64,000 nt of DNA from Polyangia bacterium. GTDB taxonomy: Bacteria > Myxococcota_A > Polyangia > Polyangiales > JAUICN01. The stretch is from NCBI GenBank assembly GCA_030427835.1, contig JAUICN010000001.1, forward strand, positions 331,929-395,928, read 5' to 3'. Shown here piece after piece: positions 22 to 20,755 of this stretch. The translations under genes were made by a program, and so were the position numbers. Position 1 is the stretch's first letter; each line of letters begins with the position of its first letter. The notes beneath the pieces were generated by a model. The model was not told where the DNA came from and did not search any database. It saw nothing but the letters and a program-made list of their open reading frames with translations.

Positions 22-642
22 TCATGCCTCCGTTAGGTGCCCACGCTGGAAGCGGGGAATGAACATCGGCACGCGGCGCTGATACGCGCGGTATTCGTCG
101 CCGAACTTCTCGAGCATTTGGCGTTCCTCTTTCCGCGCCAGCATCGTGTACGCGAAGACGATGATTGGAAACGCGACCACCGAGACAATCGTCGGCCAGT
201 GCACGACACCTTCGCCGAAGACGATGAGAAACAGCCCCGTGTATTGCGGGTGACGCACGCGAGCATAGACGCCGTCGGCCATCAGCGTTTCCGCTCGCCT
301 TGCCTTGTGAATCCTGCGCCATCCGTCCGCGACCAGCGTTGCGCCGCTGAACACGATGGCGTAACCGATCACCATGGCGACGACATGCGCGGTCGGTGTT
401 CCAAAGAGCTGGGCCCAGAGGTTGCCGCCATCTCCCCACGCGAGGTCGAGCCCGAAGTAGCGAGCGAGAAAGTAGATGGTCAGTGGGAATCCGTACATCT
501 CCGCATAGAACGCGATGATGAAGGCTTGGAGCACACCCGCGCGGGTCCATTCCTTCCAGTTGTCAGGCGCGAGGTAGCGGTACATCAGCCACGAAGCGAT
601 GACGGTCACGATGGCCGCAAGGCCCCACATTCCTACGTGCAT
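22..642 (-). CDS. Isoprenylcysteine carboxyl methyltransferase-like membrane protein
   Basis: 206-residue polytopic membrane protein, last gene of the minus-strand copper operon. Four or five hydrophobic segments are visible (about residues 5-22, 38-58, 83-103 and a long pair near 145-170). The C-terminal half carries the ICMT/PEMT-type signature: VYARVRHPQYTG (RHPQY near residue 131), then an acidic-aromatic stretch with EER and FGDEYRAYQRRVP, which in this superfamily builds the S-adenosylmethionine pocket. The family methylates prenylcysteine or phospholipid head groups in membranes; bacterial members next to metal resistance genes have no settled substrate. It starts 3 bp after the stop of the upstream gene, so it is almost certainly co-transcribed. 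Family assignment is firm, substrate unknown. Confidence 0.8.
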   Translation of the reverse strand: MHVGMWGLAAIVTVIASWLMYRYLAPDNWKEWTRAGVLQAFIIAFYAEMYGFPLTIYFLARYFGLDLAWGDGGNLWAQLFGTPTAHVVAMVIGYAIVFSGATLVADGWRRIHKARRAETLMADGVYARVRHPQYTGLFLIVFGEGVVHWPTIVSVVAFPIIVFAYTMLARKEERQMLEKFGDEYRAYQRRVPMFIPRFQRGHLTEA

Positions 643-645
643 CGC

Positions 646-978
646 CTACCTCCCCGTCTCCACAGAAGACTGCGGCCGGTGCGGACCTATCGAGCCCATT
701 CCGGGGCCCCTCATTCCAGGACCCATGCCGGTCCCCGCGCCATCCATCACGCCGGGGTACCCCATGTGCACGCTGTCGAGCTCCCCGTGCGACTGGTACT
801 TGAACCAGTAGAACGTAGTGCAGGCGCCGACAACGACACCGCCCACGACGAGCACCCAGCCAGCGGCCTTGAGTAGGTTTGCTGGGGCTTCCTTGCTGGC
901 CCGATGGAGCAGCACGAGCCCCGCCGCGATGGCGAAGATCTCCAGCATGCCGGCGATGTCTGCGGTGAACTGAGCCAT
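646..978 (-). CDS. Small Met/Gly-rich membrane protein of the copper operon
   Basis: 110 residues, family not recognised. Two hydrophobic stretches (about residues 8-24 and 38-56) predict one or two membrane helices. The tail from about residue 70 is rich in Met, Gly, Pro and His (HMGYPGVM, then several GMGPGM-like repeats), the composition of periplasmic Cu/Ag-binding tails. It lies 10 bp from the lipoprotein gene upstream and 3 bp from the methyltransferase gene downstream, in the same operon as the P1B ATPase. Inference: a metal-binding accessory membrane protein. No catalytic motif is seen. Confidence 0.65.
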   Translation of the reverse strand: MAQFTADIAGMLEIFAIAAGLVLLHRASKEAPANLLKAAGWVLVVGGVVVGACTTFYWFKYQSHGELDSVHMGYPGVMDGAGTGMGPGMRGPGMGSIGPHRPQSSVETGR

Positions 979-988
979 GGTGTGCTTC

Positions 989-1627
989 TCACTTCTCAGG
1001 GTGGTGACTGTCGTGGTCTGGGTCGGCCGGGTTGGAAGGAGCGGGAGCTTCGCTGCCGGAGCCGAGCGACATCATCGGGCACTCGCCGCCAGCCATTTGC
1101 TGGGCCTTCGTACGGACGTGCTCCTGCAGCGCCGCGAGCTGAGCCGGGTCCTGGGGACGCAAGACGACCCGGGCTCCGCCCTCGACGTCTTCCACCGAAG
1201 CGGTGGCGGGGGGCATCATCATACCGCCGCGACCGTCGCCCTCGTGGGTAGCTCCGGACTGTGCACCATGCTGGTGTTCTGCTCCGCGGGGGGACTCGCC
1301 GTGGCCTCCCATCATCATGTGGCCGCCGCGCTCGTTGTGCATGTCGGCCATGCGGCGCACGCGCTGTCGTAGCTCGGCAACATCGTCGGTCGAGGTCGTG
1401 AACGAAAGGCTGACGCCGCCGTCGACATCCGCCGCCGCCACCTCTGTTCCTGGGATTCGCATTGGGCACATGCCAGCCATCGATGCATTGCCATGCTCGT
1501 GGCTCTCGTGTTCGTGAGACGGGGCCTCAGCCGTGGTGCGGGGTTCGCTCTGAGCAGTGCTCGTCGAGGCGCAGCCCGTGAGCGACGATATGAGCGCGAC
1601 TAAAAAGATTCCGCTGAACGTGTTCAT
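989..1627 (-). CDS. Met/His-rich lipoprotein with internal duplication
   Basis: 212-residue predicted lipoprotein: signal peptide MNTFSGIFLVALISS followed by lipobox LTGC (Cys 19), then a His-rich linker. Two similar modules follow. The first runs from CPMRIPG through DVDGGVSLSF to RQRVRRMADMH (about 54-97). The second runs from MMMPPATASVEDVEGG through LQEHVRTKAQQM to GECPMM (about 135-185). Each pairs a short beta-like segment with a helix and is flanked by Cys-Pro-Met or Met/His clusters that could bind Cu(I). The segment between them is also HMMMGGHG-rich. It starts 16 bp after the ATPase stop. No named family recognised; a periplasmic copper-binding role is inferred from composition and operon. 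Confidence 0.7.
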   Translation of the reverse strand: MNTFSGIFLVALISSLTGCASTSTAQSEPRTTAEAPSHEHESHEHGNASMAGMCPMRIPGTEVAAADVDGGVSLSFTTSTDDVAELRQRVRRMADMHNERGGHMMMGGHGESPRGAEHQHGAQSGATHEGDGRGGMMMPPATASVEDVEGGARVVLRPQDPAQLAALQEHVRTKAQQMAGGECPMMSLGSGSEAPAPSNPADPDHDSHHPEK

Positions 1628-1643
1628 CTCACTTTATCTCCTG

Positions 1644-4097
1644 TCAAAGCTCTGCCCGCCGAAGGCGAAGCGCGTTGGTGATGACCGACACCGAGCTGAA
1701 GCTCATCGCGGCTGCCGCAAGCATCGGGCTGAGCAAGACCCCAAATGCCGGATACAGGATCCCCGCGGCCACCGGGACGCCCAGCGCGTTGTAGATGAAG
1801 GCGAAGAACAGGTTCTGTTTGATGTTCGCCATCGCATTGCGAGACAGCTTTCGCGCACGCACGATGCCGCGAAGATCGCCTTTGACCAAAGTCACACTCG
1901 CGCTTTCCATTGCGACATCGGTGCCGGTTCCCATCGCGATTCCCACCTGGGCTTGAGCTAGGGCGGGCGCGTCGTTGATGCCATCACCGGCCATTGCGAC
2001 GATGTGGCCTTCGCTCTGGAACCGTCTTACTGCGGCGGCCTTCTCGTCTGGCAAAACCTCCGCTACGACTTCGTCGATCGAGAGCTTGCCCGCAACCGCG
2101 TTGGCCGTCGTTTGGCTGTCGCCCGTAAGCATGACAACGCGGATACCTTCGGCGTGCAGTGCGGCGATCGCCTCTGGAGTGCTCTCTTTGATCGGATCCG
2201 CAACACCTAGAAGGCCGGCAATCCGACCGTCGATCGCTACAAACATCACGGTTTGCCCTTCGGCGCGAAGGTCCTCGGCAGCCTTGCCCACGGCGTCGAT
2301 CTCGGCCCCTACGTCTTGCATCATGGCGAGGTTGCCGAGCGAGACCCGGCGTCCCTCCACCAGGCCCTGAACGCCCTTGCCCGTCACGGACCCGAATTCG
2401 TCAGCTTTCGTGACGGCCACGCCGCGTTCCTGCGCACCCGCGACGATAGCGGCGGCTAGCGGGTGCTCGCTGCCGCGTTCCAGCGTTGCCGCAAGCCTCA
2501 GCAATGTGCCTTCGTCGCATCCTGGTTCAGCCGATACGGTGACCAGCCGAGGCCGGCCCTCCGTGAGCGTTCCTGTCTTGTCGACCACGAGGGTGTCCAC
2601 CTTACGCATCACCTCGATGGCTTCGGCGTTCTTGAACAAGAGGCCGTAGCTCGCACCCTTGCCGGTTGCGACCATGATCGACATTGGTGTCGCCAATCCC
2701 AGCGCACAAGGGCATGCGATGATCAGAACAGCGACGGCGTTGATCAGCGCGTAAGCCATCGCAGGCTCAGGACCCACCGCGGCCCAGACGATGAACGTGA
2801 CGACGGCGATCAGGATTACGGCGGGAACGAAATACCCGGAAACCACGTCGGCTAGCTTCTGAATTGGCGCACGGCTTCGCTGGGCCTCTGCGACCATGCT
2901 TACGATTCGGGCAAGAAGCGTCTCGGCGCCGACCTTTTCAGCACGCATGACGAGACCACCGGTGCCATTCATCGTTGCGCCGACAACGGCGTCGCCCACT
3001 GCCTTCTGCACGGGAATCGGCTCGCCAGTGACCATCGACTCGTCTACGTTCGACGTGCCTTCGAGAACCACTCCATCCACCGGAATCTTCTCCCCAGGCC
3101 TCACGCGCAAGCGATCACCGGGAGAGACATCGTCGAGAGGCACGTCCTCCTCCGATCCATCGTCTTTGATGCGTCGGGCACTCTTTGCTGCCATCCCAAG
3201 CAGCTTCTTGATGGCGGCACTCGTTTGGCTGCGCGCCCTCAGCTCGAGCACTTGGCCGAGGAGGATCAACGTCACGATCACCGCGGCGGCTTCGAAGTAG
3301 ACCGCAACCTCGCCGCCGTGCCCTCGAAACGACTCTGGGAATACGTCCGGCAGAAGGGCAGCGACAACGCTGTAGATGAACGCGACGCTCACGCCGAGAC
3401 CGATGAGGGTGAACATGTTCAGGCTTCGGTTCCGAATTGAGCGGACGGCGCGCACGTAGAACGGCCACGCGGACCACAAGCACACCGGCGCGGCGAGACC
3501 GAGCTCGATGAACGAACGAATGCGTCCAGGCAGCGCGGCGGAAATCGGGCGCCCTGGCAACATGTCGAGCATCACGATAGCTAGCAGCGGAACTGAAAGA
3601 ACGGCCGCGAACCAGAAGCGACGCGTCATATCGCGCAGCTCGGCGTTGTCTTCCTCACCGGCCACAGGCGCCTTTGGTTCGAGCGCCATGCCGCAGATGG
3701 GGCAGTCCCCTGGTGCGTCCCGAACGACTTCCGGGTGCATGGGGCAGGTCCACTCGCCTCCGTGGGGGCTGGGAAGTGCGCCTGCTAGCTCAAGGCTCAT
3801 TCCGCACTTCGGGCAGTCCCCGGGCTTGTCCTGGGCCACCTCTGGGTGCATCGGGCAAGTGTAGACACCATGTCGCGAGTGCGAGTCCTGCGCCTTTTCG
3901 CGGTGCCCATGTTCGACCGACGCAGTGGCGGAGTAGCGCGCCGGGTCAGTCTCGAACTTCTCGGCACATCGGCTGCTGCAGAACAAGACGGTCTCCCCCG
4001 CCTGCTCGCGGCGATGCTGGGTATCCCTCCGGACCGTCATCCCGCAAACGGGATCCGTGGCCGTCTTGGCCGGCGCATTCTTCGGGTCAGCTGCCAT
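1644..4097 (-). CDS. Cu(I)/Ag(I)-exporting P1B-type ATPase with YHS and two heavy-metal-binding domains
   Basis: 817 residues from the chosen start. The N-terminus has a YHS domain (DPVCGM near residue 18 and a second Cys pair, FCSSRC) and then two HMBD modules (CPMHPEV...CPKCGM near 81-100; CPMHPEV...CPICGM near 118-137). There is no classical GMxCxxC HMA domain. The ATPase core is complete: CPC in IACPCALG near residue 461, DKTGTLT near 505, SEHPLA, TGD and GDGINDAPA. The last helices carry YN...P and MSFSSVSV, the P1B-1 signature for Cu(I)/Ag(I). Role: ATP-driven export of cytosolic copper into the periplasm. A longer frame reaches 4172, but that start lies upstream of the -24/-12 promoter at 4123-4138; ATG 4097 has GGAGG five bases upstream. 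First gene of the minus-strand operon. Confidence 0.95.
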
Positions 4098-4122
4098 GAA
4101 GGCCTCCATAGCCCTGCTGCCC

Positions 4123-4138
4123 AGCATGTTTCGTGCCA
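4123..4138 (-). promoter_or_regulatory. Sigma-54 promoter of the P1B ATPase operon
   Basis: Minus strand reads TGGCACGAAACATGCT: the -24 GG and -12 GC are separated by exactly 10 bases, matching TGGCACG-N4-TTGCW closely. Predicted transcription start near 4112 leaves a 15-base leader containing GGAGG ahead of ATG 4097. Confidence 0.8.
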
Positions 4139-4213
4139 ACTCTCTCATTCCCAAGGAACCCGCTAAATTCACGATCCTTGGGCGCTGAGTGGTTGCCGCG
4201 TGTGGTCATTTCG

Positions 4214-4238
4214 GTTACAAAGTGTCGAGTGGAGTTAC
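4214..4238. promoter_or_regulatory. Candidate enhancer between the divergent sigma-54 promoters
   Basis: Two GTTAC direct repeats (4214-4218 and 4234-4238) are spaced 20 bp, two helical turns. The second lies in GAGTTACTC-like context and matches the half-site of the 7240-7260 palindrome. The element lies about 75 bp from the ATPase promoter and about 50 bp from the kinase promoter, a usual range for bound activators of sigma-54 polymerase. Sequence-only inference. Confidence 0.45.
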
Positions 4239-4289
4239 TCAGACTCGGCCCAGGCAAGTGCACCGCCGGATCCTTCGGGGCGAGTCGCG

Positions 4290-4306
4290 TTGGCGCGCGT
4301 GCTGCA
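4290..4306 (+). promoter_or_regulatory. Sigma-54 promoter of the kinase/regulator operon
   Basis: TGGCGCGCGTGCTGCA at 4291-4306 has GG and GC separated by 10 bases and differs from the -24/-12 consensus at two positions only. It ends 21 bases before ATG 4328, so the two regulators probably depend on the response regulator they encode, as in the zraSR operon of enteric bacteria. Confidence 0.65.
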
Positions 4307-4327
4307 GATGCACCCTGAGAGATAGAG

Positions 4328-5839
4328 ATGATGGCGACCAAACTCACCCGTGACGGCTCGCCACGCTTCATTGCGCGGCAAATGGCTTTCGGATTCGGAG
4401 CCGTTAGCGTCGTCGCCGTAGGGATGTGCGCGATGCTACTGAGCATCATCTACGACGTGTCCGGGCTCGTGGAGTCCATGCGCCACGACGAGACGTCGAT
4501 CCGCCAGGGCCTTTCACTCGCGACCTCGGTGAGGGAGCTGTCGATCCACATCGCCCACACCGTAATCGAGGCGGACGACTCCCACCTCGACCACTATGGG
4601 GACTTTCGAGATCGTGTTCGGACACAAATCCAGGAGCTTTCCTCGCGGGTTCCGGCAGAGGAACGCTTCCGCCTCGAGGTGCTCGGCGAAAAGACGCAAC
4701 GAATGCACGACCTGCTCATGGAGTCGGCACTGCCCGCGGCGCGACGCGGGGACTTGGAAGAAGTGCGCAAGGTGCACCGCGATATCGAAGCACTCGGAGA
4801 AGAGGCCGCTCGGCATGCAGATGCTCTAGCTCACGTGACCACTTCGCAGATGGCCCACGCGCACGTACTCGCGACGAACTCGACGCGTTTGGGACTACTG
4901 GGAGGAGGCCTGTGTGCGGCGCTGATCGTGATTCTTTCGATCGGTTTTACGCTCCGCCTGAGGGCTGCCGTCCTGAAACCGCTCCTCACCCTCACCCAGG
5001 CGGCGCGTCGTTTCGGAAGCGGTAACTTCGAAGAACGCGTAGGCCGGGTCGGCAAAGGCGAGCTTGCTGCACTCGGGGATGCGTTCGATCACATGGCCGA
5101 CGAGCTCGCTCGCCGTGAGGCGCGACTGGTGCAGAACGAACGCATGGCAGCGATCGGCCAACTTGCCGCTGGCGTCGCCCATGAGCTCAATAACCCGATC
5201 GGCATCATTCGTGGCTACTTGAAGACGATGAGTCCAGAAGAAGACAGCGAGACGCTCCGCGACGAACTCGCGATCCTCGACGAAGAGGCCGGCCATTGCC
5301 AACGCATCGCCGACGACCTGCTTTCGTATGCTCGTACGGGAGAACTCTCCATTGACCGCGTCCACATGGGAGAGTTCCTGCAAGAGACGGCTAAGCGCTT
5401 TCAGAGCGGAAACGGTTCGAACGGATCGCGTGTCGAGGTGTCGGCGCAAGATGTGATTGTCGAGGCGGACGGTGCACGACTGAGGCAAGTTGTGCTCAAC
5501 CTTCTCACCAATGCGGACCAGGCATCGCCCCCGAACGCTGTGGTGCTGCTTCGAGGCAGCCTCGTTGGAGGTCAGTATCAGATCGAAGTCGAAGACGCCG
5601 GTCCGGGCGTCGCGCCAGAAGATCGCGCGCACGTCTTCGAGCCGTTCTTCTCCAAACGGCGAGGCGGCAGTGGGTTGGGGCTAGCCGTTTGCCAGGGCAT
5701 CGTGAGAGCACACGCGGGCACGATCGAGATAGTGGAAGCACGCGCGCCGGGGACGATCTTCCGGGTCACCCTGCCAGAAAAACACACACGGTCGTCACGG
5801 CCTAGTGACCCGGTCATGGCTCGCGAGGAGGCGCGATGA
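4328..5839 (+). CDS. Sensor histidine kinase (ZraS-like) of the copper regulon
   Basis: 503 residues. TM1 about 18-44, a periplasmic sensor region of about 140 residues, TM2 about 187-209, HAMP about 210-262. HisKA follows with phosphoacceptor H285 in GVAHELNNP, and a complete HATPase: N-box LLTNADQAS, G1 GPGVAPEDR, F-box FEPFFSKRR, G2 GGSGLGLAVCQG. The periplasmic part has no striking His/Met cluster, so the ligand cannot be read from the sequence; the island suggests Cu or Ag. The stop overlaps the response-regulator start in ATGA (5836-5839), so the pair is translationally coupled. An in-frame second ATG follows the first directly. Likely autoregulated through the -24/-12 element at 4290. 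Confidence 0.9.
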   Translation: MMATKLTRDGSPRFIARQMAFGFGAVSVVAVGMCAMLLSIIYDVSGLVESMRHDETSIRQGLSLATSVRELSIHIAHTVIEADDSHLDHYGDFRDRVRTQIQELSSRVPAEERFRLEVLGEKTQRMHDLLMESALPAARRGDLEEVRKVHRDIEALGEEAARHADALAHVTTSQMAHAHVLATNSTRLGLLGGGLCAALIVILSIGFTLRLRAAVLKPLLTLTQAARRFGSGNFEERVGRVGKGELAALGDAFDHMADELARREARLVQNERMAAIGQLAAGVAHELNNPIGIIRGYLKTMSPEEDSETLRDELAILDEEAGHCQRIADDLLSYARTGELSIDRVHMGEFLQETAKRFQSGNGSNGSRVEVSAQDVIVEADGARLRQVVLNLLTNADQASPPNAVVLLRGSLVGGQYQIEVEDAGPGVAPEDRAHVFEPFFSKRRGGSGLGLAVCQGIVRAHAGTIEIVEARAPGTIFRVTLPEKHTRSSRPSDPVMAREEAR

Positions 5840-7245
5840 GTAGTCGGCGTTGCACTCTTCTGATTGTCGATGACAAGAGGAACATGGTGCGGCTCATGGC
5901 TAAGGTCATGAAGAAGGACGCGGCCGTCCGTACCGCGGAGAATGGCGCGGAGGCACTGCGCGTGCTCGCAAGCGAGCCGGTGGACGTCGTGCTGTGCGAC
6001 CTGAAGATGCCCGACATGGACGGCCTCGACGTGCTTCGTGCCTGCCGCCGTCTTCGGCCCCAAGCCGAGTTCGTCCTCATGACGGCCTACGCAACTGTCG
6101 GCACCGCGGTCGAGGCGCTCAAGCTCGGCGCCTATGACTACCTGACTAAGCCGTTCGAGCCTGATGCGGCGCGAGCTGTGCTGTTGCGGGCACTCGCCCG
6201 GGCCGCTTCCACGCACCCCGACGCGGGTGGCGAAACGGAAGTGCTCCCAGGCGTCATCGCGCGCTCCCGCTCGATGCAGGACCTCGCCGACTTGATCAAG
6301 CGGATAGCCGACAGCGACGCCACGGCGCTCCTGCTGGGCGAGACAGGCACCGGCAAGGAACGGATCGCGCGAGCAGTTCACGATCTGTCTCCTCGCTCTG
6401 CGCGCCGCTTCGTTGCGCTCAACTGTGCGGCGGTGCCAGCCGAGCTGCTGGAGAGCGAACTGTTCGGGTACGCGAAAGGGGCATTCACAGGCGCCACCGC
6501 CGAGCGCAAGGGGCTGTTCGAGGAAGCGGACGGCGGCAGCCTCTTCCTAGATGAGATCGGCGACATGCGGCCGTCTCTACAAGCGAAGCTGACGCGCGCT
6601 CTCGAAGAGCGGGCCATCCGCCGCGTCGGGGACTCAAAGGAGCGCCCCGTCGATGTTCGGCTCATCGCAGCCACGCATCGCGACCTCGAAGCTATGGTCC
6701 AAAGCGGCACATTTCGCGAGGACCTCTGGTATCGTCTCAACGTCGCGCTCGTGCAGCTTCCTCCGCTGCGCGACCGACGGGATGACATCGAGCTCTTGGC
6801 GCACCACTTCTTGCGCCTGCAAGCAGAGCGCACGCGAGGCCGCAACATCAAGGGTTTCGCCCCGGCAACCCTTGAGGCCCTCACAGCATACGATTGGCCT
6901 GGCAATGTCCGTCAGCTTCGCTCGGCAGTCGAACGCGCCTGTGTCGTCACCCGCGATGAGAACATCGGCGTTGTCGATCTGCCTCCCGAGGTGCTCCGAG
7001 GCACCCATGGCACCGAGGAAGATCCTTCGCTGTCGCTGTGCACGTGGGCGCAAGCCGTGGAACGTGGCCGAGCTGACGTTGGCAGACGCTACTTGGAAGC
7101 CCTGATGCGCCGCTTTGACGGTCAAGTCGCCGAAGCCGCTGCCCAGGCCGGCGTGGAGCGCGAGAGCTTCTACCGCCTGCTCAGAAAGCACGGCGTGGAC
7201 GCCGGTGCGTTCAGAGGCAATGCAGGCGACGCAGGCCGAAAGTAA
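5836..7245 (+). CDS. Sigma-54-dependent response regulator (ZraR/NtrC-like)
   Basis: 469 residues with three domains. The receiver has D12-D13, phosphoacceptor D55 in [14 protein letters not shown]83 and K105 in YLTKPF. The AAA+ domain (about 140-375) has Walker A GETGTGKE, the sigma-54 contact loop GAFTGAT, Walker [12 protein letters not shown] and an arginine-finger region. The Fis-type HTH near the C-terminus contains [25 protein letters not shown]. It should bind enhancers and open sigma-54 promoters when phosphorylated by the preceding kinase. Three matching promoters flank or precede the island operons (4123, 4290, 7355), so it is the probable master regulator. Its stop codon lies inside a palindrome (7240-7260) that may be its own operator. 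Confidence 0.95.
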
Positions 7246-7260
7246 CCGATACAGTTACTT
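7240..7260. promoter_or_regulatory. Palindromic operator overlapping the regulator stop codon
   Basis: AAGTAAC (7240-7246) and GTTACTT (7254-7260) form a perfect 7-bp inverted repeat around a 7-bp spacer. The TAA stop of the response regulator is within the left arm. The centre is about 110 bp upstream of the sigma-54 promoter at 7355, consistent with an activator-binding enhancer. Confidence 0.55.
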
Positions 7261-7318
7261 CGAGACCGATGCAGCCACTTCGCTTTGGGCCGGGGCGGAG
7301 CGGACAAAGCCAGAAGCA

Positions 7319-7330
7319 TTGTAATTACAA
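7319..7330. promoter_or_regulatory. TTGTAATTACAA palindrome upstream of the efflux operon
   Basis: Perfect 12-bp palindrome 25 bp upstream of the -24 element. It shares the GTAA/TTAC core with the 7240-7260 and 4214-4238 elements, so it may be a second, weaker activator site. Being short, it could also arise by chance. Confidence 0.35.
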
Positions 7331-7354
7331 ACGCTTTGGCCAAGTGATGGCTGG

Positions 7355-7370
7355 TGGCACGATGCTTGCT
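7355..7370 (+). promoter_or_regulatory. Sigma-54 promoter of the cupredoxin/Cus/Cop operon
   Basis: TGGCACGATGCTTGCT fits TGGCACG-N4-TTGCW at every defined base, with GG and GC 10 bases apart. The predicted start near 7381 is followed by ATGGAGG and then ATG 7395. This is the same leader architecture as at the ATPase promoter, where ATGGAGG also precedes the start. Confidence 0.9.
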
Positions 7371-7394
7371 TCGCATGCCTCCATGGAGGTTTTC

Positions 7395-7781
7395 ATGAAA
7401 GTGGCTGCCGGCATCCTCACTACCGCCCTCATTGCTGCCTCTGGATGCAATTCCACTAAGGCGGAGAGTTCAGTTCAGACCGACCCGGCGGAGACCGCGA
7501 CCAGCGCACGCGCCGGTGAACGCGTAACCGTGACGGTCACGGGCCAGGGATACGAGCCCAGCTCGATCGATGCCGCCGCGGGTGCGCCCCTCACGTTGGT
7601 ATTCAAACGGACCAGCGACCAGGGATGCGGACACGAAGTGGTGTTTCCCGATCGGAACATCCGTCGGGAGCTGCCACTCAATGAGGAGGTCGAGATCACG
7701 CTGACTCCAGCCGCAGATGAACACATTGCTTTCACCTGCGGCATGGGCATGCTCCGCGGCACGATCGTGGCAACTCGGTAG
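7395..7781 (+). CDS. Cupredoxin-domain lipoprotein
   Basis: 128 residues: signal peptide MKVAAGILTTALIAA with lipobox ASGC (Cys 18), a short linker, then one cupredoxin fold (about 40-128). Type-1 copper ligands can be proposed from GCGHEVVF (Cys/His near 78-80) and the C-terminal FTCGMGM loop, which supplies the second Cys and Met. Likely a membrane-anchored periplasmic copper carrier or scavenger feeding the efflux pump or oxidases. The frame is open from 7269, but that start precedes the promoter; ATG 7395 has GGAGG five bases upstream. First gene of the plus-strand operon; 5 bp before the TolC-like gene. Confidence 0.85.
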   Translation: MKVAAGILTTALIAASGCNSTKAESSVQTDPAETATSARAGERVTVTVTGQGYEPSSIDAAAGAPLTLVFKRTSDQGCGHEVVFPDRNIRRELPLNEEVEITLTPAADEHIAFTCGMGMLRGTIVATR

Positions 7782-7786
7782 CAACG

Positions 7787-9223
7787 ATGCTCTACCTGTT
7801 CGCCACACGAGCGGCCCTGATCGGACTCACCGCTTGCGCGGCGGTGGCGCTGTTCGGCGGGTGCGCGGGCACCTACGAGTCTGCGGTCCGGCACTACATC
7901 GACACCGTGCGCGCCCGCCATGATTGGCCCGTCGATACCAGTGGCAGCGGAACTCCTCTCTCGCGAACTCAAGCCGACTCGCTTTCGACCGGGGTCCGGG
8001 CCTACGTTGCTCTGGCGCTGCAAAACAACCCCGAAATTCGCGCCGCGTTTGAGCGTTGGCAGGCCAGCGTGCACCGCATCTCCCGGGCCCGTCGGCTGCC
8101 AGAGCCCACGCTGGGGTTTGGCTACTTCATTCAGTCTGTGGAGACGCGGGTGGGTCCCCAGCAAGCCCGTATCAGTCTGCAACAAGCGTTTCCCTGGCCG
8201 ACGAAGCTCACGGCTGGAGCCGATGCCGCCTCGGCACAAGCCCGTTCCATACAGCGGAGGTTCGAGGCCCAGTCGCTCATGATCGCGCAGCGGGTGGTGA
8301 CCGCCTACTGGAGTCTCTGGCAGATCCGCAGCACCCGCTCGATTCATCAGCAACATCTCGAAGTCGTCCGTGGCCTCTCCGAGTCCGTGAGAGCTCGAAT
8401 ATCGACCGGTACCGCTACGCTGGCGGACCTTCAACAGATCGATCTCACGGCCGCTCGTCTGGAGGACAACATTCGGGGCATGGATGAAGCCGAGCGCGTC
8501 GCAGAAGCTCAACTGCGCGCAGCGATTGGCGTGCAGGGTGACCTTGTCGTCCCCACTGATCAGCCGCCCTCCGATCCGGCGTCGCCGAGTGAGAGCCGTG
8601 AGGTGCTGGTCGCCGCGGCGCAGGACCACCCGATGATCACGAGCCTCGGCTTTATGGCTGAAGCGGCGGAATCCTCCGCACGAGCAGAGGCTGCCGACCG
8701 CTACCCGAGCTTCACAGTGGGCGCAGACTGGATCATCACCGGCGACGCGGTGATGCCCGGCGTGGCCGACAGCGGCAAGGATGCGGTCATCGTCGGCGCA
8801 GGTATCCGGATCCCGCTCTGGCAGGGAAGCTACTCGGATAGCATTGCGGCTGCTCGCGCCGACGCCAGGGCCCAACGAGCGGACCAGCGAGCCCTCGAAG
8901 ATCGAGCGTCCGCCGAGCTGACCACGTCACTCTCCAATGTGGAGGATGCCGTTCGACGTGTCGCCCTCTACCGAGGAACGCTCGTTCCTCAAGCGGAGTC
9001 AGCCTACGACTCGGTGCTCGGCGCATACACGGTAGGTCGTGGAACCGTTGCTCAGGCACTTCTTGCGCAACGTGATCTGCTGGAGTTGCGCATCGAACTC
9101 GACCGTGCACGCGCCGACTACGAACGGGCGTGGGCACGCCTCGAGGAAATAACGGGCCGCGAGGTCAGACGCGCGTCCATCGCCGCTGAAGGCGAAAGCG
9201 CCCCAGAAGCTACCGATGAGTGA
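7787..9223 (+). CDS. cusC: CusC-type outer-membrane efflux lipoprotein (TolC family)
   Basis: 478 residues. The signal peptide ends in a lipobox (FGGC, Cys near 26), as in CusC. The rest has the TolC pattern: two homologous halves of long amphipathic helices with short strand segments, e.g. ALALQNNPEIRAAFERWQ at the start of the first half and TTSLSNVEDAVRRVALYRGTLVPQAESAYD in the second. Forms the trimeric outer-membrane channel of the CusCBA copper/silver efflux system. Its stop overlaps the start of the adaptor gene by 8 bp. Confidence 0.9.
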   Translation: MLYLFATRAALIGLTACAAVALFGGCAGTYESAVRHYIDTVRARHDWPVDTSGSGTPLSRTQADSLSTGVRAYVALALQNNPEIRAAFERWQASVHRISRARRLPEPTLGFGYFIQSVETRVGPQQARISLQQAFPWPTKLTAGADAASAQARSIQRRFEAQSLMIAQRVVTAYWSLWQIRSTRSIHQQHLEVVRGLSESVRARISTGTATLADLQQIDLTAARLEDNIRGMDEAERVAEAQLRAAIGVQGDLVVPTDQPPSDPASPSESREVLVAAAQDHPMITSLGFMAEAAESSARAEAADRYPSFTVGADWIITGDAVMPGVADSGKDAVIVGAGIRIPLWQGSYSDSIAAARADARAQRADQRALEDRASAELTTSLSNVEDAVRRVALYRGTLVPQAESAYDSVLGAYTVGRGTVAQALLAQRDLLELRIELDRARADYERAWARLEEITGREVRRASIAAEGESAPEATDE

Positions 9224-11126
9224 AGCCATGATGAACCGTCTCAAAAAGTTGCTCGTGAGAATCCGAGAGGGGATGAGGCCACAGGTTGGAAGGGCGGGAC
9301 TCTTGCTTCTTGGATTCCTCATTGCTTCCGTCCTATTTGCCGTTCGTTCTTGCTCCGAGCCAAAACCGCACGATGACCACCGGGCCACGCCGGCCGCGAG
9401 CAGCAGCGAGCAGACCATCTGGACGTGCTCGATGCATCCCCAGATCCGCCAGCCCGAGCCAGGGCAGTGTCCGATCTGCGGCATGGATCTGATTCCAGTC
9501 ACATCAGGCGACAACGCGGGGGCCAGTAGCCCCACGCGCATCGTGCTTTCGGACCGAGCTCGGGCCCTTGCAAGGCTGCGAACGGTGCCCGTACGTCGTC
9601 GCGCAGACGCGTCGGGTCAACTGCGACTGCTCGGGCGCATTGACGCGAACGAAACGACGTTGAAAACGATCACCGCGTGGACGGGCGGCCGCATCGATCG
9701 GTTGCATGTCAACGTGACCGGCGAGCGTGTTCGCGCGGGCCAAGTCATCGCGACGCTGTACAGTCCCGAGGTTTTCGCAGCGCACCAGGACTTGCTCGTA
9801 GCAAAGCGACAGGTTGAGCGCATGGCGCAAAGCCCGGACTCATCGCGCCGTGCTGCGGCGGCGGCTCTCGATGCCGCGCGCGAGCGACTTCGTCTCCTCG
9901 GCGTTCCCGACGATGAGCTGGCCCGCATGGAAAGGCAGGAACGACCGACACGGGCGGTGGCGATTCGCACGCCATTCGCAGGCACGGTGATCGAACGAAT
10001 AGCCACCGAGGGTGCGTATGTTTCAACTGGGACGCCGCTCTACCGGCTCGCCAACTTGAGCACGCTGTGGCTGCAGCTCGATGCCTATGAGAGTGACCTG
10101 TCAGGGGTTGCCCTCGAAGACTCCGTGCGGGTCATGGTGGATGCCCTGCCGGGAGAGGACTTCGAAGGCAAGGTGGCGTTCATCGATCCAACGATCGATC
10201 CGCGAACCAGGACTGCGCGTGTTCGCGTCGTGCTGGACAACGCCGAGGGACGCCTGCGGCCCGGGATGTTTGCCCAGGCCACGGTGGCGACGGGTGCGGT
10301 GGCAGATGGAAGAAGCCCCCTGGTGGTGCCGGCCACAGCCCCGCTGTTCACGGGCCGGAGGGCGATACTCTACGTGGAGGTACGGGACGGCGACCGCACC
10401 GCCTACGAGGCCCGGACGGTGCGGCTCGGGCCTCGACTCGGAGACTTCTATCCCGTGGTGGCGGGACTTTCCGAGGGCGAGCGCGTAGTTTCGCGCGGGG
10501 CATTCGCGCTCGACGCCGACCTCCAGATTCGCGGCGGAGCGAGCATGATGACGTCCCCGGACGACAGCGCGGAGGGAGTGTGGGACGCGGCGATTGAGCT
10601 GAGCGCTGGGCAGCGTGGACAGCTGGCCCCGATCGTAACCGCCTACTTGGCCGTTCAGAAAGCACTCGCCGCCGACAGCCTGTCCGAGGCGAAAGCCGGA
10701 GCCGAGCGCTTGATAGCCGCGATTGCCACTGTGAGCTTCGAGCGCTCGCGAGAAGCTGCGGCAGCTTGGGCCGAAGTGAGCGCCGGCCTCGGCCAGCATG
10801 GCCGCCACGTGAAGATGGCGACGGATCTCGAGGGCGCGCGCTCAGGTTTCGAGGGGCTGAGCCAGGAGGTCGAGGTTCTGCTTCGCCGATTTGGTAACCC
10901 GCTCGACACACCTCTCAACGTTGCGTTCTGTCCGATGGCCGTAGGAAGCGAGGGTGCTTCCTGGGTGCAGCGTGGGACGGAGATCGAGAACTCGTATTTC
11001 GGGGCCTCGATGCGCGACTGCGGAGAAATTCAGCACCAAGTGCCGGCCGAATCGTTTCTTTCTCCGCCCGCTGATTCGAGCGCGACCAGGCAGGCACCTG
11101 CGCCTGCTGGAGGGCACCAGCATTGA
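9216..11126 (+). CDS. cusB: CusB-type RND periplasmic adaptor with heavy-metal-binding and DUF3347 domains
   Basis: 636 residues. Membrane anchor about 26-43; HMBD about 69-92 (CSMHPQI...CPICGMDL, Cys 71, 85, 88); then the barrel-sandwich lipoyl, alpha-hairpin and beta-barrel domains of an HlyD/CusB adaptor (LDAYESDLSGV, DPRTRTARVRVVL). The C-terminal 140 residues resemble DUF3347: CPMAVGSEGASWVQ followed by NSYFGASMRDCG. Both extra domains carry Cys/Met metal ligands, so the adaptor probably binds and hands over Cu(I)/Ag(I). Start 9216 overlaps cusC; ATG 9228 is an alternative. Its TGA overlaps the TTG start of cusA. Confidence 0.92.
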   Translation: MSEAMMNRLKKLLVRIREGMRPQVGRAGLLLLGFLIASVLFAVRSCSEPKPHDDHRATPAASSSEQTIWTCSMHPQIRQPEPGQCPICGMDLIPVTSGDNAGASSPTRIVLSDRARALARLRTVPVRRRADASGQLRLLGRIDANETTLKTITAWTGGRIDRLHVNVTGERVRAGQVIATLYSPEVFAAHQDLLVAKRQVERMAQSPDSSRRAAAAALDAARERLRLLGVPDDELARMERQERPTRAVAIRTPFAGTVIERIATEGAYVSTGTPLYRLANLSTLWLQLDAYESDLSGVALEDSVRVMVDALPGEDFEGKVAFIDPTIDPRTRTARVRVVLDNAEGRLRPGMFAQATVATGAVADGRSPLVVPATAPLFTGRRAILYVEVRDGDRTAYEARTVRLGPRLGDFYPVVAGLSEGERVVSRGAFALDADLQIRGGASMMTSPDDSAEGVWDAAIELSAGQRGQLAPIVTAYLAVQKALAADSLSEAKAGAERLIAAIATVSFERSREAAAAWAEVSAGLGQHGRHVKMATDLEGARSGFEGLSQEVEVLLRRFGNPLDTPLNVAFCPMAVGSEGASWVQRGTEIENSYFGASMRDCGEIQHQVPAESFLSPPADSSATRQAPAPAGGHQH

Positions 11127-14100
11127 GTACGCAAGACGACGCTGCACCAGCCGACGCCGGCCCCCCCGGCTCCGGCGGGCTATGGCAGGCTCTCATCGGT
11201 TGGTTTGTCGACAACAAACTAATCGTATTCCTTCTCGCCCTCATGCTGATCGGCGGCGGGATCTATGTTTCACCGTTTGCATGGCAAAGTGGACCGCTCC
11301 CAAGAGATCCGGTCCCAGTCGATGCCATTCCAGACATCGGCGAGAACCAGCAGATCGTCTTCACAGAATGGCCCGGGAGATCCCCGCGCGACGTCGAAGA
11401 TCAGATCACCTATCCGCTGACCACCGCCCTGCTGGGCATTCCCGGAGTTCGCACCGTCAGGAGCTCTTCGGCGTTTGGCTTCTCCACGATCTACGTCATC
11501 TTCAACGACAACGTCGAGTTCTACTGGTCTCGATCGCGGGTGCTTGAGAAGCTCGCCTCGCTTCCACCGGGTACCGTTCCTGATGGAGTCACGCCCACCC
11601 TGGGACCCGACGCGACCGCCCTCGGGCAGATTTTCTGGTACACGCTCGAGGGACAAGATCCGCAAGGAAACGTCGTTGGGGGATGGGACCCTGACGAGCT
11701 GCGGAGTATTCAGGATTGGACCGTTCGCTACGCGCTGCAGTCAGTAGAGGGCGTAAGCGAGGTTGCATCGATAGGCGGATTCGTCCGTGAGTATCAAGTC
11801 GACGTGGACCCCGAGGCGATGCGGGCTCACGGAGTGAGCCTTGCCCAGGTCGCAAACGCCGTGCGCAACTCAAACCTCGATGTCGGCGCTCGAACGCTGG
11901 AGGTCAACAGCGTCGAGTACCTCGTACGAGGGCTAGGGTTCGTTAAGGACCTGTCCGATCTCGAAGCCACCGTGGTCGTCGCTAGAGAGAACACACCGAT
12001 TCGTGTGCGCGACGTGGGCCGCGTCTCGCTCGGCCCCGCACTGCGTCGCGGGGCGCTGGATGACGAAGGAGCACCGGCCGTGGGCGGCGTCGTGGTGGCC
12101 CGCTACATGGAGAATCCGCTCGCCGTCATCGATGGTGTGAAGTCGAAGATCGAACAGATCCAGGCCGGTCTACCCAGGCGCACCTTGGAAGACGGAACCA
12201 CCAGCCAGGTCACGATCGTGCCGTTCTACGACCGCACGACGCTCATCCACGAAACGCTGGGAACCCTGTCGACAGCACTGTTTCAAGAGATCCTGATCAC
12301 CATCATCGTCGTGCTCATCATGCTTCGCAACCTGCGAAGCTCGATGCTGATCTCCGCCATGTTGCCCTTGGGGGTCTTGGGCGCATTCGTGGTGATGAAG
12401 GTGACGGGGGTGGACGCCAATATCATGGCGCTCGGCGGGATCGCCATCGCCATCGGAACCATGGTGGACATCGGGATTGTGTTCGTGGAGAACATGAACC
12501 AGCACCTTGAAGATGCCGCACCGGGGGATGATCGCGCGGCTGTGGTGCGTAGGGCTGCAGCCGAAGTCGCGCCGGCGGTCATGACCTCGGTACTCACCAC
12601 GGTCGTGAGCTTCCTGCCGGTCTTCGGTTTGTCATCGACTGAGCTGCGACTCTTTGCTCCGCTTGCGTTCACCAAGACGTTCGCGATGAGCGGCGCGCTT
12701 GTTCTCGCGTTGCTCGTGCTCCCTGGCGCAGCCCTGATCGTTTTCCGACGCAGGCCGCAGGCACCTCGCACCACCGCCCAGGGATGGAGGAAGCTCGCCG
12801 TCTCTCTGTTTCGTGCGGAACACATCCGCGACTGGATATTTTTCGGGCTTGGCTTCGCGTTGCTCAAGTACAGCCTTCTTGGAGGCCTGCTGGTCGCGGC
12901 GCTCGGCGGGTATCGTCTGGTGCGCCCGCTTCTGGCTCCCGTGACCAACAAGCGGATGACAACCGGCGAGAACATCCTCGCCGTGGTAGCAGTCACCCTG
13001 CTGCTCGCCGAGGACTGGCTGCCGCTCGGACACAGTAAGGGGCTGGTACTGAATGTTCTTTTCGTTGGCGCTTTGATTGCCGGCGTGATGGTCACGTTTC
13101 GGCTGTTTGAGTCGAGCTACCCAACGATCCTGCGCGCGATCCTTCGCCGAAAGCTCCTCTTTCTGCTCCTGCCGTTCTCGATCTTCCTATTCGGTACGAC
13201 GGCGTGGTTGGGCTTCGATCGGGTGTTCGGCTTCCTGCCTCAGTCTGTTCGCGTAAGCCGGCCGGTGGCCGCCGTTGCTCACGCATTCCCCGGCTTCGGA
13301 CGAGAGTACATGCCCCCGTTCGACGAGGGGTCCTATCTCTACATGCCGACTACGATGCCGCATGCGTCCATCGGAGAGGTGCTCGGCATGCTCTCGGAGA
13401 TGGACGCCGCCATCGCACAGATCCCAGAAGTAGACCGGGTCGTTGGAAAGCTAGGTCGCGCCGACAGCGCGCTCGATCCGGCGCCGCTCTCGATGATTGA
13501 AACCGTCATCACTTACAAGCCGGAGTACAGGGTGGCAGAGGACGGTAGCCGAGAGCGCCTATGGCGCGACCACATTCGCTCTCCGCGAGACATATGGACC
13601 GAAATCGTGCGCGCTGCTGAGCGTCCAGGGGTCACGAGTGCACCGACGCTGATGCCGATCAACGCGCGAATCGTGATGCTGCAGAGCGGCATGCGGGCAC
13701 CAATGGGCATCAAAGTGCACGGTCCCAGTCTTGAGGCAATTGAAGCGTTTGGTCTGCGGCTCGAAGAGATCCTGAAGACCGTTCCTTCGGTTCGAACAGA
13801 GACTGTGTTCGCGGACCGGGTCGTGGGAAAGCCCTACATCGAAATCGACCTCAATCGCGAGGCCATCGGCCGGTACGGACTCACGATAGTCGACGTCCAG
13901 CACGTGCTTCAGGTGGCCCTCGGGGGGATGACGTTGACGCGTACCGTGGAAGGTCGCGAGCGCTATCCGGTCCGCGTGCGCTACATGCGAGAGGAACGCG
14001 ACAGCCTAGAAGCGCTCGAGCGCATCTTCGTACCGACGCCGGGTGGGCAGCAGATTCCAATCACGCAGCTGGCTGACATCCAGTACGTGCGTGGCCCCCA

Positions 14101-14911
14101 GATGATCAAATCCGAGGATACGTTCCTCACCAGCTACGTCCTGTTCGACCGTCAGCCGAACATCGCGGAGGTCGAAACCGTCGAGCAAGCCCGAGCGGTC
14201 ATCCAGGGGCAGATCGATAGTGGCGAGCTTCAAGTACCTGCCGGCGTCAGCTTCGAGTTTTCGGGCTCCTACGAAAACCAAGTCCGAAGCGAGAAAAGGC
14301 TCATGGTCCTCATCCCCGTGGCATTGGCGCTCGTATTCATCCTGCTCTACCTCCAGTTTCATCGGGTGGCGACAAGCGCGATCATCTACTCGGGCGTAGC
14401 AGTGGCGGTATCGGGCGGGTTCACGCTGCTTTGGCTCTATGGGCAACCTTGGTTTCTGGACTTCGAGGTGCTGGGTACTTCGATGCGAGACTTGTTCCAA
14501 GTCGGCACGGTCAACATGTCGGTGGCCGTCTGGATCGGCTTCATCGCCCTGGTGGGCGTCGCGACGGACGATGGCGTGGTGCTGTCGACTTACTTGAAGC
14601 AGCGCTTCGAGCAGGCGCCGCCGAGAACCATTGAAGAGGTACGCGAGCGGACGCTCGAGGCGGGGACTCGCCGTGTTCGCCCTTGTCTAATGACCACCGC
14701 GACGACGATCCTTGCCCTGCTTCCCGTCATCACGTCGCAGGGCCGAGGCTCCGACATCATGGTGCCGATGGCCCTCCCGTCGGTGGGCGGAATGGCCATC
14801 GAGCTCATCACGCTGTTCGTGGTGCCCGTGCTCTACTGCGCGTTCGAAGAGCGCAAGCTGAAGGTACGAGCGGCACCGGAGCTCGCCAGTGATTTGAGAG
14901 GAGCAAGGTAA
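11123..14911 (+). CDS. cusA: CusA-type heavy-metal RND efflux pump
   Basis: 1262 residues, about 200 longer than E. coli CusA. TTG start at 11123 within the cusB stop, with GGAGG upstream. The heavy-metal RND signature GGIAIAIGTMVD...VENMNQHLEDA is in TM4, and the periplasmic porter has REYMPPFDEGSYLYMP. The extra length is a central insertion (about residues 540-670) with several added hydrophobic helices, seen in some CusA/CzcA relatives but not in the enteric protein. Proton-driven export of Cu(I)/Ag(I) from periplasm or cytoplasm through CusC. Its TAA overlaps the ATG of the next gene. Confidence 0.93.
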   Translation: MSTQDDAAPADAGPPGSGGLWQALIGWFVDNKLIVFLLALMLIGGGIYVSPFAWQSGPLPRDPVPVDAIPDIGENQQIVFTEWPGRSPRDVEDQITYPLTTALLGIPGVRTVRSSSAFGFSTIYVIFNDNVEFYWSRSRVLEKLASLPPGTVPDGVTPTLGPDATALGQIFWYTLEGQDPQGNVVGGWDPDELRSIQDWTVRYALQSVEGVSEVASIGGFVREYQVDVDPEAMRAHGVSLAQVANAVRNSNLDVGARTLEVNSVEYLVRGLGFVKDLSDLEATVVVARENTPIRVRDVGRVSLGPALRRGALDDEGAPAVGGVVVARYMENPLAVIDGVKSKIEQIQAGLPRRTLEDGTTSQVTIVPFYDRTTLIHETLGTLSTALFQEILITIIVVLIMLRNLRSSMLISAMLPLGVLGAFVVMKVTGVDANIMALGGIAIAIGTMVDIGIVFVENMNQHLEDAAPGDDRAAVVRRAAAEVAPAVMTSVLTTVVSFLPVFGLSSTELRLFAPLAFTKTFAMSGALVLALLVLPGAALIVFRRRPQAPRTTAQGWRKLAVSLFRAEHIRDWIFFGLGFALLKYSLLGGLLVAALGGYRLVRPLLAPVTNKRMTTGENILAVVAVTLLLAEDWLPLGHSKGLVLNVLFVGALIAGVMVTFRLFESSYPTILRAILRRKLLFLLLPFSIFLFGTTAWLGFDRVFGFLPQSVRVSRPVAAVAHAFPGFGREYMPPFDEGSYLYMPTTMPHASIGEVLGMLSEMDAAIAQIPEVDRVVGKLGRADSALDPAPLSMIETVITYKPEYRVAEDGSRERLWRDHIRSPRDIWTEIVRAAERPGVTSAPTLMPINARIVMLQSGMRAPMGIKVHGPSLEAIEAFGLRLEEILKTVPSVRTETVFADRVVGKPYIEIDLNREAIGRYGLTIVDVQHVLQVALGGMTLTRTVEGRERYPVRVRYMREERDSLEALERIFVPTPGGQQIPITQLADIQYVRGPQMIKSEDTFLTSYVLFDRQPNIAEVETVEQARAVIQGQIDSGELQVPAGVSFEFSGSYENQVRSEKRLMVLIPVALALVFILLYLQFHRVATSAIIYSGVAVAVSGGFTLLWLYGQPWFLDFEVLGTSMRDLFQVGTVNMSVAVWIGFIALVGVATDDGVVLSTYLKQRFEQAPPRTIEEVRERTLEAGTRRVRPCLMTTATTILALLPVITSQGRGSDIMVPMALPSVGGMAIELITLFVVPVLYCAFEERKLKVRAAPELASDLRGAR

Positions 14912-16734
14912 TGGACGAGGTGGATGGTCGCCGACGCCAGTTCCTCAAGACCAGCATTCGAGCGGGCGGCGCGTTGCTTCTTGGTCGCTTTGTCACCGGC
15001 TGCGCCACCTCGGGAGCCGTGGCGCCAATGCGCCGTTCCCTCGTCACCGCCCGCGGCGAGAGCATCGACCTCCACATCGCCGAAACTCGCGTGGCCATCG
15101 CGGGGGGACGCGCCACCGCGACGACCATCAACGGTGGCGTGCCCGGACCCGAGCTTCGGCTCAGAGAGGGGCAGGACGTGCTGCTACGCGTGCACAATGG
15201 ACTGGACGTTGATACGTCCATCCACTGGCACGGACTCTTGGTCCCGCCGGAGATGGACGGCGTGCCTGGCGTGAGCTTCCCCGGGATCCGTCCCGGCACG
15301 ACCTTCGAGTACCGCTTCCCGATCCGTCAGAGCGGGACCTACTGGTACCACAGCCACAGCGGCTTTCAGGAGCAGACGGGGATCTATGGGCCCATCGTGA
15401 TCCAACCGCGGGAGCCCGAGCCCTACGACTACCAGCGCGAGTTCACCATCGTCCTTTCGGACTGGACCTTCGAGAACCCGCATCGGGTGCTGGCCAACCT
15501 TAAACGGTACGGAGGGTACTACAACTACCAGCGCCGAACGCTGGCCAACCTTGGCGATGAGGCTGAGCGCATGGGCTTCTGGGGCGCTCTTGGCGATCGA
15601 CTGAGCTGGGGACGCATGCGCATGGATGCCTCCGACATCTCGGATGTCACGGGCGCTACGTACACGTTCCTGATGAACGGTCTCTCGCCCGATGAAAACT
15701 GGCGTGGGATGTTTCGTCCCGGAGAACGCGTCAGACTGCGCTTCATCAACGCGTCCGCGGCGACCTACTTCGACGTGCGGATTCCGGGGCTGCCTATGCA
15801 GGTCATCCAGGCCGACGGCATGCCCGTCGCGCCGGTTGAGACCGATGAGTTCCGACTGGCCATTGCCGAGACGCTGGACGTCGTCGTCGAGCCCACCCGC
15901 GCGGCCTACACCATCTTTGCCGAGGCGATGGACCGCAGCGGACACGCCCGGGGAACGCTGGCCACCGATCAAGTTTCGACGGCGCCGGTGCCAGGGCGAC
16001 GTCCGCGTCCGCTACTCACGATGGCAGACATGGGCATGGATCATGGCGACATGGAGGGCATGGATCACGGTGGCGCCCCCACGGGCGGGCACGGCTCCGA
16101 CCACGGCGGCGGGTCCCACAGAGGGCACGCGGGCATGTCCGGGATGGACCACGGTGGCGCTTCTGCAGCGGGCGATGCAGCGCCGAGATGCCGGGAGAAC
16201 CTCGAAGTCGTCGCTCGCCACGACGATGATGGTCATGGCGCCGGCAACGCGATGGTCGCAGAAACCGCGCGCTCTCGCATCACCGAGCCTGGAGTCGGCC
16301 TTGGCCAGGACGGCTGGCGCGTCCTCACCTATTCACAGCTGCGCCGAGCCGCGCCTGGGCCGTCGACTGCAGCAGTGACGAGAACGATCGAGCTGCACCT
16401 GACCGGCAACATGGAGCGCTACATGTGGTCGTTCGACGGTGAGCAGTACCACCATGACATGCCTGACATCGTCCTTCGCTACGGGGAGCGCGTCCGTTTC
16501 GTGCTCATCAACGACACGATGATGGCTCACCCCATACACCTCCACGGCATGTTCTTCGAGCTCGACGTGGGGGCGTGCGAGCGCAACCCGCTCAAGCACA
16601 CCGTCAACGTCCAGCCCGCCGAACGCACGTCCTTTGTCGTGACGGCCCACGAGGTCGGCCGCTGGGCCTTCCACTGCCACGTCCTCTATCACATGGAGGC
16701 GGGGATGTTCCGGGTGGTGGAGGTGCGCCAATGA
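14911..16734 (+). CDS. copA: Tat-exported multicopper oxidase CopA (PcoA type)
   Basis: 607 residues. Twin-arginine signal (R7-R8-R9-Q-F-L-K) and hydrophobic core, so it is exported folded. Four copper-binding motifs: IHWHG near 105, YWYHSHSG near 147, HPIHLHG near 540 and HCHVLYHMEAGM near 590. The Met/His-rich insertion (about 370-420, several MDH and GMDHG units) is typical of CopA/PcoA and binds Cu(I) for oxidation to Cu(II). Periplasmic copper detoxification. The ATG overlaps the cusA stop and the TGA overlaps copB in ATGA; the CopA-CopB order matches the classic cop/pco operons. Confidence 0.95.
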   Translation: MDEVDGRRRQFLKTSIRAGGALLLGRFVTGCATSGAVAPMRRSLVTARGESIDLHIAETRVAIAGGRATATTINGGVPGPELRLREGQDVLLRVHNGLDVDTSIHWHGLLVPPEMDGVPGVSFPGIRPGTTFEYRFPIRQSGTYWYHSHSGFQEQTGIYGPIVIQPREPEPYDYQREFTIVLSDWTFENPHRVLANLKRYGGYYNYQRRTLANLGDEAERMGFWGALGDRLSWGRMRMDASDISDVTGATYTFLMNGLSPDENWRGMFRPGERVRLRFINASAATYFDVRIPGLPMQVIQADGMPVAPVETDEFRLAIAETLDVVVEPTRAAYTIFAEAMDRSGHARGTLATDQVSTAPVPGRRPRPLLTMADMGMDHGDMEGMDHGGAPTGGHGSDHGGGSHRGHAGMSGMDHGGASAAGDAAPRCRENLEVVARHDDDGHGAGNAMVAETARSRITEPGVGLGQDGWRVLTYSQLRRAAPGPSTAAVTRTIELHLTGNMERYMWSFDGEQYHHDMPDIVLRYGERVRFVLINDTMMAHPIHLHGMFFELDVGACERNPLKHTVNVQPAERTSFVVTAHEVGRWAFHCHVLYHMEAGMFRVVEVRQ

Positions 16735-17477: not shown

Positions 17478-17501
17478 CGTGGGGAGGACTTGAAGGACAT
17501 C

Positions 17502-20679: not shown

Positions 20680-20755
20680 TGGCTCCGAGAGCAGGACTCG
20701 AACCTGCGACCAAGTGATTAACAGTCACCCGCTCTACCAACTGAGCTATCTCGGA
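20680..20755 (-). tRNA. tRNA-Asn (anticodon GTT)
   Basis: 76 nt with encoded CCA. Minus strand begins TCCGAGATAGCTCAGTTGG (acceptor and D arm). The anticodon loop contains CTGTTAA with GTT, and the T loop is GTTCGAGTCC. The acceptor stem TCCGAGA pairs with TCTCGGA. The 3' end faces the copper island, the orientation used by tRNA-targeting integrases. Confidence 0.97.

Follow-up and report, generated by a model that had tools for sequence, protein, structure and literature searches.

CusRS and CueR of enteric bacteria are OmpR- and MerR-type regulators that work with sigma-70. ZraSR of Escherichia coli has divergent target and kinase–regulator operons, both preceded by sigma-54 elements, and an NtrC-type regulator. 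In Myxococcus xanthus, CorSR, a periplasmic-sensor kinase and a sigma-54 response regulator, is encoded within curA, a nine-gene operon; its targets include its own kinase gene and copA, one of four putative sigma-54 promoters lies before corS, deletion of corSR removes most of the copper-dependent expression of copA, and copA also answers to the extracytoplasmic function factor CorE (PMC3707914). The locus considered here is a copper island at the opening of a 64,000-nucleotide stretch (the window) from the 3.3-Mb, 98%-complete genome of a Polyangia bacterium. We consider it likely, with a probability of about 0.8, that a metal-responsive (most likely copper or silver) two-component system of the island switches on three operons through sigma-54: a P1B ATPase operon, the kinase–regulator operon, and a cupredoxin–Cus–multicopper oxidase operon. 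Copper or silver was taken as the signal because of the gene neighborhood.

As in curA, the sigma-54 pair of the window stands beside a cupredoxin (PF13473 in M. xanthus), a multicopper oxidase, and a YHS-type CopA, but curA is a single operon with no Cus pump in its table (PMC3707914), whereas the window has a Cus pump and another layout. With ZraSR, the window shares the divergent arrangement, the sigma-54 elements before both operons, and the type of regulator; ZraP, however, is not in the window's gene set, and the E. coli intergenic region has no match better than three mismatches to the candidate enhancer described below. With CusRS-CusCBA and CueR-CopA, it shares the outputs, that is, a Cus-type pump, a P1B ATPase, and a multicopper oxidase, but its regulator is NtrC-type and goes with sigma-54 elements. 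The preliminary description of the island had drawn this last contrast, which is fair for enteric bacteria; the rarity that it implied is unsupported because CorSR, the closest case, which it overlooked, has been published as a sigma-54 copper two-component system (PMC3707914). In the literature searched, CorSR was the sole sigma-54 response regulator tied to copper, and passages of PMC12316311, PMC3333781, PMC10141476, and PMC10142276 held no second sigma-54 copper case; in Desulfovibrio alaskensis, PAS-type sigma-54 regulators are raised by Cu(II) (PMC8836040). The present case extends the CorSR example and opens no new kind. What is new is the binding site that the sequence by itself predicts for the switch; sigma-54 copper control itself is already in print. 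When a Corallococcus genome was searched with the kinase and the ATPase, the four stretches read contained no cluster that resembled curA and carried a matching pair. Among the loci of the family f35 genomes (L244–L248; regulators at 46–50%), four were without a copper-type gene by tblastn, and L246 had only a 28% CusC-type match.

The three GG-N10-GC elements on which the preliminary description had built were located as claimed: TGGCACGAAACATGCT at 4123–4138 (minus strand) before the ATPase operon, TGGCGCGCGTGCTGCA at 4291–4306 (plus strand) before the kinase–regulator operon, and TGGCACGATGCTTGCT at 7355–7370 (plus strand) before the cupredoxin operon. Their distances to the start codons (4097, 4328, and 7395) are 41, 37, and 40 bp, respectively, and transcription is predicted to start at 4112, 4317, and 7381, which would leave leaders of 15, 11, and 14 nt. 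With a −24/−12 weight matrix (weights preset, not fitted), the ATPase, kinase, and cupredoxin elements scored 16.7, 12.2, and 19.8 and ranked 2, 9, and 1 when both strands of the window were scored (127,970 positions). Dinucleotide shuffles of the 250-nt upstream stretches reached the observed scores 2, 23, and 0 times in 2,000. The same matrix gave 16.7 for zraP, 13.1 for zraS, 14.7 for glnA, and 17.1 for atoD of E. coli; thus, the kinase element, at 12.2 versus 13.1–17.1, is a little weaker than the control promoters. The genome has one match to rpoN, and exact TGGCACG-N4-TTGCW occurs at 17 sites genome-wide, compared with one for the pattern read backward. The heptamer ATGGAGG, previously pointed out as common to the ATPase and cupredoxin leaders, is real, but it needs no special explanation because it includes GGAGG, the ribosome-binding site, within leaders predicted to be 14–15 nt long, and it was set aside as a special element. 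Beside the cupredoxin promoter, two perfect 12-bp palindromes were observed, TTGTAATTACAA at 7319–7330, upstream of the −24 element, and CCTCCATGGAGG at 7378–7389, over the ribosome-binding site. Outside the island, a one-mismatch −24/−12-like site, TGCCACATGCGTTGCA, lies at 27083–27098 (minus strand).

For comparison with relatives, the genomes of the phylum were searched with the N-terminal two thirds of the kinase (E ≤ 1e-20), which matched 36 of 377 genomes, own genome included, and 40 stretches around the matches were taken (one from G379, a Myxococcales bacterium). With the window excluded, a sigma-54 match at p ≤ 0.05 was found before 17 of 34 first-in-operon kinase genes, where 1.7 were expected. 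Other first-in-operon genes had such matches as well (CusC 4/11 and MCO2-type 2/8), as did two of six cupredoxin genes inside operons; the inside-operon controls gave 1/26 for CusA and 1/16 for CusB. The combined p value, 1.9e-14, overstates the significance because several rows are near copies, the loci are related, and the starts are estimated. Locus L125 mirrors the layout of the window, with the ATPase divergent from the kinase, TGGCACCGCTCTTGCT before the ATPase, and an exact copy of the candidate enhancer in between; its ATPase site was missed by the automatic test because the start had been misjudged. In the nearest relatives, L120 and L121, a sigma-54 site and an exact enhancer precede the kinase gene.

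The candidate enhancer, GTAACC-N5-GGTTAC, was recognized by reading 15 upstream stretches. Within two mismatches, it is present in 15 of 35 kinase-first stretches (0.12 expected), the kinase region of the window not being among the 15. Before other first-in-operon genes, the counts were 3/11 for CusC, 0/4 for cupredoxin, and 2/9 for MCO2-type; before cupredoxin genes inside operons, 3/7. The remaining inside-operon genes gave 0/27 (CusA), 0/17 (CusB), and 2/40 (regulator; 0.08 expected). Because the motif had been found by eye, an out-of-sample test was made, in which the window, L120, L121, and L125 were removed and the 38 other kinase upstream regions were searched at up to two mismatches. 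A spacer of five was found in 12 of the 38 regions, any other spacer between 0 and 11 in at most three, and among 180 permutations of the half-site the true one was best, the runner-up reaching five. The test is not fully blind because some of the 38 regions were among the stretches first read. Around 30 sites, a second copy (up to four mismatches) turned up at a distance of 20–23 bp in 11 of 240 trials versus 5 of 1,620 at other offsets of 10–40, some pairs being counted twice. Paired dimer sites suit NtrC-type activators.

Across the 377 genomes of the phylum, the exact enhancer occurs at 47 sites, distributed over 24 genomes; the control pattern read backward gave numbers of similar order. 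Eleven of the 47 sites were inspected: five precede kinase–regulator or Cus operons (G254, G363, G130, and two in G179), two, both in G345, adjoin genes of other kinds close to metal loci, and for four (L254–L257) tblastn gave no copper gene. No sigma-54 match of at least 13.5 was found near the two exact enhancers of G179. One of the G345 sites (L258, 8896–8912) lies between divergent genes, one of which encodes a small lipoprotein, YHS-like by eye, ∼6 kb from a P1B ATPase; it is possibly a further target in a relative. At L255 (G206, 8601–8674), a strong sigma-54 match (score 15.2) comes after an exact enhancer and precedes the gene for a putative lipoprotein of 601 aa; no copper gene lies nearby, and the arrangement either is due to chance or serves another activator. 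The enhancer sequence, in four written forms, was not found in the literature searched, and it was not seen in the parts of PMC3707914 that were read.

In the window, the strong candidate copy, GTAACCGATACAGTTAC at 7242–7258, has one mismatch, overlaps the stop codon of the regulator gene, and is centered 105 bp before the −24/−12 element of the cupredoxin operon; one of 2,000 shuffles contained such a site. A possible degenerate second copy, weak with its five mismatches, follows 20 bp on (7262–7278). Between the divergent ATPase and kinase promoters, two weak candidate copies are likewise 20 bp apart, GTGGTCATTTCGGTTAC at 4202–4218 (three mismatches) and GTGTCGAGTGGAGTTAC at 4222–4238 (four mismatches). 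Shuffles of this gap contained a three-mismatch site 67 times in 2,000, and none of the 2,000 held two RGTTAC half-sites, as the gap does. A further enhancer-like site with one mismatch is situated within the cupredoxin coding sequence (7524–7540).

Several observations weigh against a sigma-54 switch over all three operons. When −24/−12 sites are counted loosely, the window is not enriched (166 matches with up to three mismatches, 172.9 expected), and therefore only high-scoring, well-placed sites are informative. The kinase promoter is weak, as its 23 of 2,000 shuffles indicate; the two enhancer copies between the ATPase and kinase genes are weak as well, and a three-mismatch match is also present in the zraP-zraS gap of E. 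coli. Half of the relatives have no visible sigma-54 site before the kinase gene, first-in-operon cupredoxin and ATPase genes had a sigma-54 match in only 0/4 and 1/6 cases, and L120, with its site before the kinase gene, has none before its cupredoxin. At up to one mismatch, the strict enhancer occurs four times in the own genome (7242–7258 and 7524–7540 in the island and twice elsewhere) compared with 17 times for the backward pattern, and a relaxed form 116 times compared with 176. Because these counts fall below the backward controls while two of the four strict sites are in the island, the enhancer is enriched locally, not genome-wide. The regulon may possibly be limited to the island, as judged from these predicted sites.

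The predicted wiring is weakest at the kinase promoter and at the paired enhancer copies between the ATPase and kinase genes, and here the best-surviving alternative comes in: sigma-54 would drive the ATPase and cupredoxin operons, whereas the kinase–regulator operon would not be autoregulated, its −24/−12 match being due to chance and another promoter being used. The kinase element having the lowest score of the three, the poor enhancer pair, and the 17 of 34 relatives lacking a site at p ≤ 0.05 speak for it. However, the other 17 relatives do have a kinase sigma-54 site, it is accompanied by an exact enhancer in L120 and L121, no sigma-70-like site was found nearby (4090–7400), and the genuine zraS promoter itself scores only 13.1. 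We therefore regard a switch without autoregulation as unlikely, although it is the most serious competitor of the switch over three operons.

The preliminary description had called the switch ZraSR-like and autoregulated. With respect to the wiring, this is supported by the quality of the sites, the sigma-54 sites in relatives, and the common candidate enhancer; with respect to kinship, it did not hold. The regulator consists of a receiver and a Sigma54_activat domain, with the GAFTGA contact motif, as had been noted, at residues 215–220. It misses the NCBIfam cut-offs of ZraR (392 versus 760 bits), AtoC, and NtrC, and the kinase misses that of ZraS (146 versus 479 bits), its BLAST match to ZraS being limited to 256–488, outside of which the sensor region lies. 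The recognition helix is unlike ZraR's GITRKTLLAKLSR. In a tree of 68 regulators, from which one truncated row had been removed beforehand, 41 of 42 kinase-linked rows formed one branch (support 100/99) containing neither E. coli ZraR, AtoC, or NtrC nor any of 16 other references; the regulator of the G379 stretch (L053) falls inside it. That a ZraSR-type zinc or envelope-stress system came to sit beside copper genes by chance is therefore improbable, even though the architecture with a divergent target gene is the same, ZraR, at 43%, is closer than the other two E. coli regulators compared, and histidine ligands in the sensor would suit zinc, too; besides the separate branch, helix, and cut-offs, the neighbors are copper-type. 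Least probable of all is that a CueR/CusR-type regulator runs the island with sigma-70 and the −24/−12 matches are decoys: the genome has three MerR-family matches elsewhere, but none reaches the NCBIfam cut-off of CueR (best, 84.9 versus 147.4 bits), 4090–7400 is without a sigma-70-like site, MerR dyads were not found within the set limits (one three-mismatch CusR-like match was just at its limit), and the adjoining regulator is NtrC-type.

The copper-type neighborhood is common among the relatives: in one set 17 of 20 relatives, and in another 15 of 20 (L040 left aside), had such genes within the stretch, with the caveat that RND matches at 25–34% identity may be generic. The kinase-linked regulator branch is wider than copper because some members have no adjoining copper gene. 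L040 is a low-coverage contig from another assembly; its last 672 bp (6001–6672) match the regulator gene at 89% identity (97% at the protein level), whatever precedes them shows no similarity, and the contig is probably chimeric. Five histidines of the sensor are conserved in an alignment of 42 kinases that includes the window's: H74 (39), H77 (39), H86 (38), H89 (32), and H150 (39). A single-sequence model of the sensor (mean predicted local distance difference test score 69) has helices at 12–79, 86–105, 110–140, and 143–228, and, judged from the helix ends, the five histidines would lie at the membrane-distal end of a helical bundle. In a structure search with the model, nothing matched at E ≤ 0.001; NarQ fragments came nearest (E 1.1e-3, template modeling score ∼0.3), and only "helical bundle" was therefore taken from it.

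The switch over three operons can be pictured as follows. Periplasmic metal would bind the histidine cluster of the kinase, which, as its domains suggest, would phosphorylate the NtrC-type regulator. The latter is predicted, from sequence and conservation, to bind the GTAACC-N5-GGTTAC dyads ∼60–105 bp upstream of the −24 elements. Opening of RNA polymerase–sigma-54 by AAA+/GAFTGA proteins is established for the NtrC-type family, and the AAA+/GAFTGA activity of this regulator would do so at the −24/−12 elements of the ATPase, the kinase–regulator (hence positive autoregulation), and the cupredoxin–Cus–multicopper oxidase operons. Because a sigma-54 promoter remains closed until it is opened by an activator that uses ATP, steep, self-amplifying induction and a low basal level are expected, which would contrast with the better-studied copper regulators. 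Somewhat less firmly, we favor the view that the system belongs to a family of sigma-54 metal switches across the phylum that is distinct from ZraSR, marked by five histidines in the sensor, a recognition helix of the ERES(F/L)(Y/H)RL type, and an enhancer of its own, GTAACC-N5-GGTTAC, which often comes as tandem copies 20–23 bp apart; copper export would then form a self-reinforcing sigma-54 regulon, and CorSR may be a member of the family or a parallel to it. With the predicted enhancer, part of the regulon can be read from the sequences of many genomes.

The minus-strand operon is led by the P1B ATPase gene (1644–4097), the product of which has a YHS, two HMBD, and an E1-E2 ATPase domain by Pfam and is copper-type by NCBIfam (TIGR01511, 600 bits; cut-off 397). 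It is followed by a gene for a His/Met-rich putative lipoprotein without any Pfam family (989–1627) and, probably in the same operon, by genes for two small membrane-type proteins (together 22–978; 646–978 and 22–642, the latter with methyltransferase-type Pfam matches). On the plus strand, the sensor histidine kinase (4328–5839; HAMP, HisKA, and HATPase_c by Pfam) and the regulator (5836–7245; Response_reg and Sigma54_activat) precede a cupredoxin-like lipoprotein (7395–7781; Cupredoxin_1) and CusC/TolC-, CusB-, and CusA/CzcA-type heavy-metal efflux proteins (7787–14911; TIGR00914, 783.5 bits, cut-off 701.45). A CopA-type multicopper oxidase (14911–16734; TIGR01480, 765 bits, cut-off 479), more genes, and a second multicopper-oxidase-like protein (18873–20378) complete this strand's set (14911–20378).

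The 20 kb left of the window (L272) contain further metal-type genes and a long open reading frame (462–3557), primase-like as judged by eye, no family search having been made; because of both, the island may reach beyond the window. At its other end, it is adjoined by a tRNA-Asn gene (20680–20755), as is often the case with integrated islands; in the window and the 20 kb to its left, the search for repeats of the tRNA end gave none of more than 12 bp. The G+C content is 63.6% in the island (1–20400) versus 59.6% in 20800–64000.

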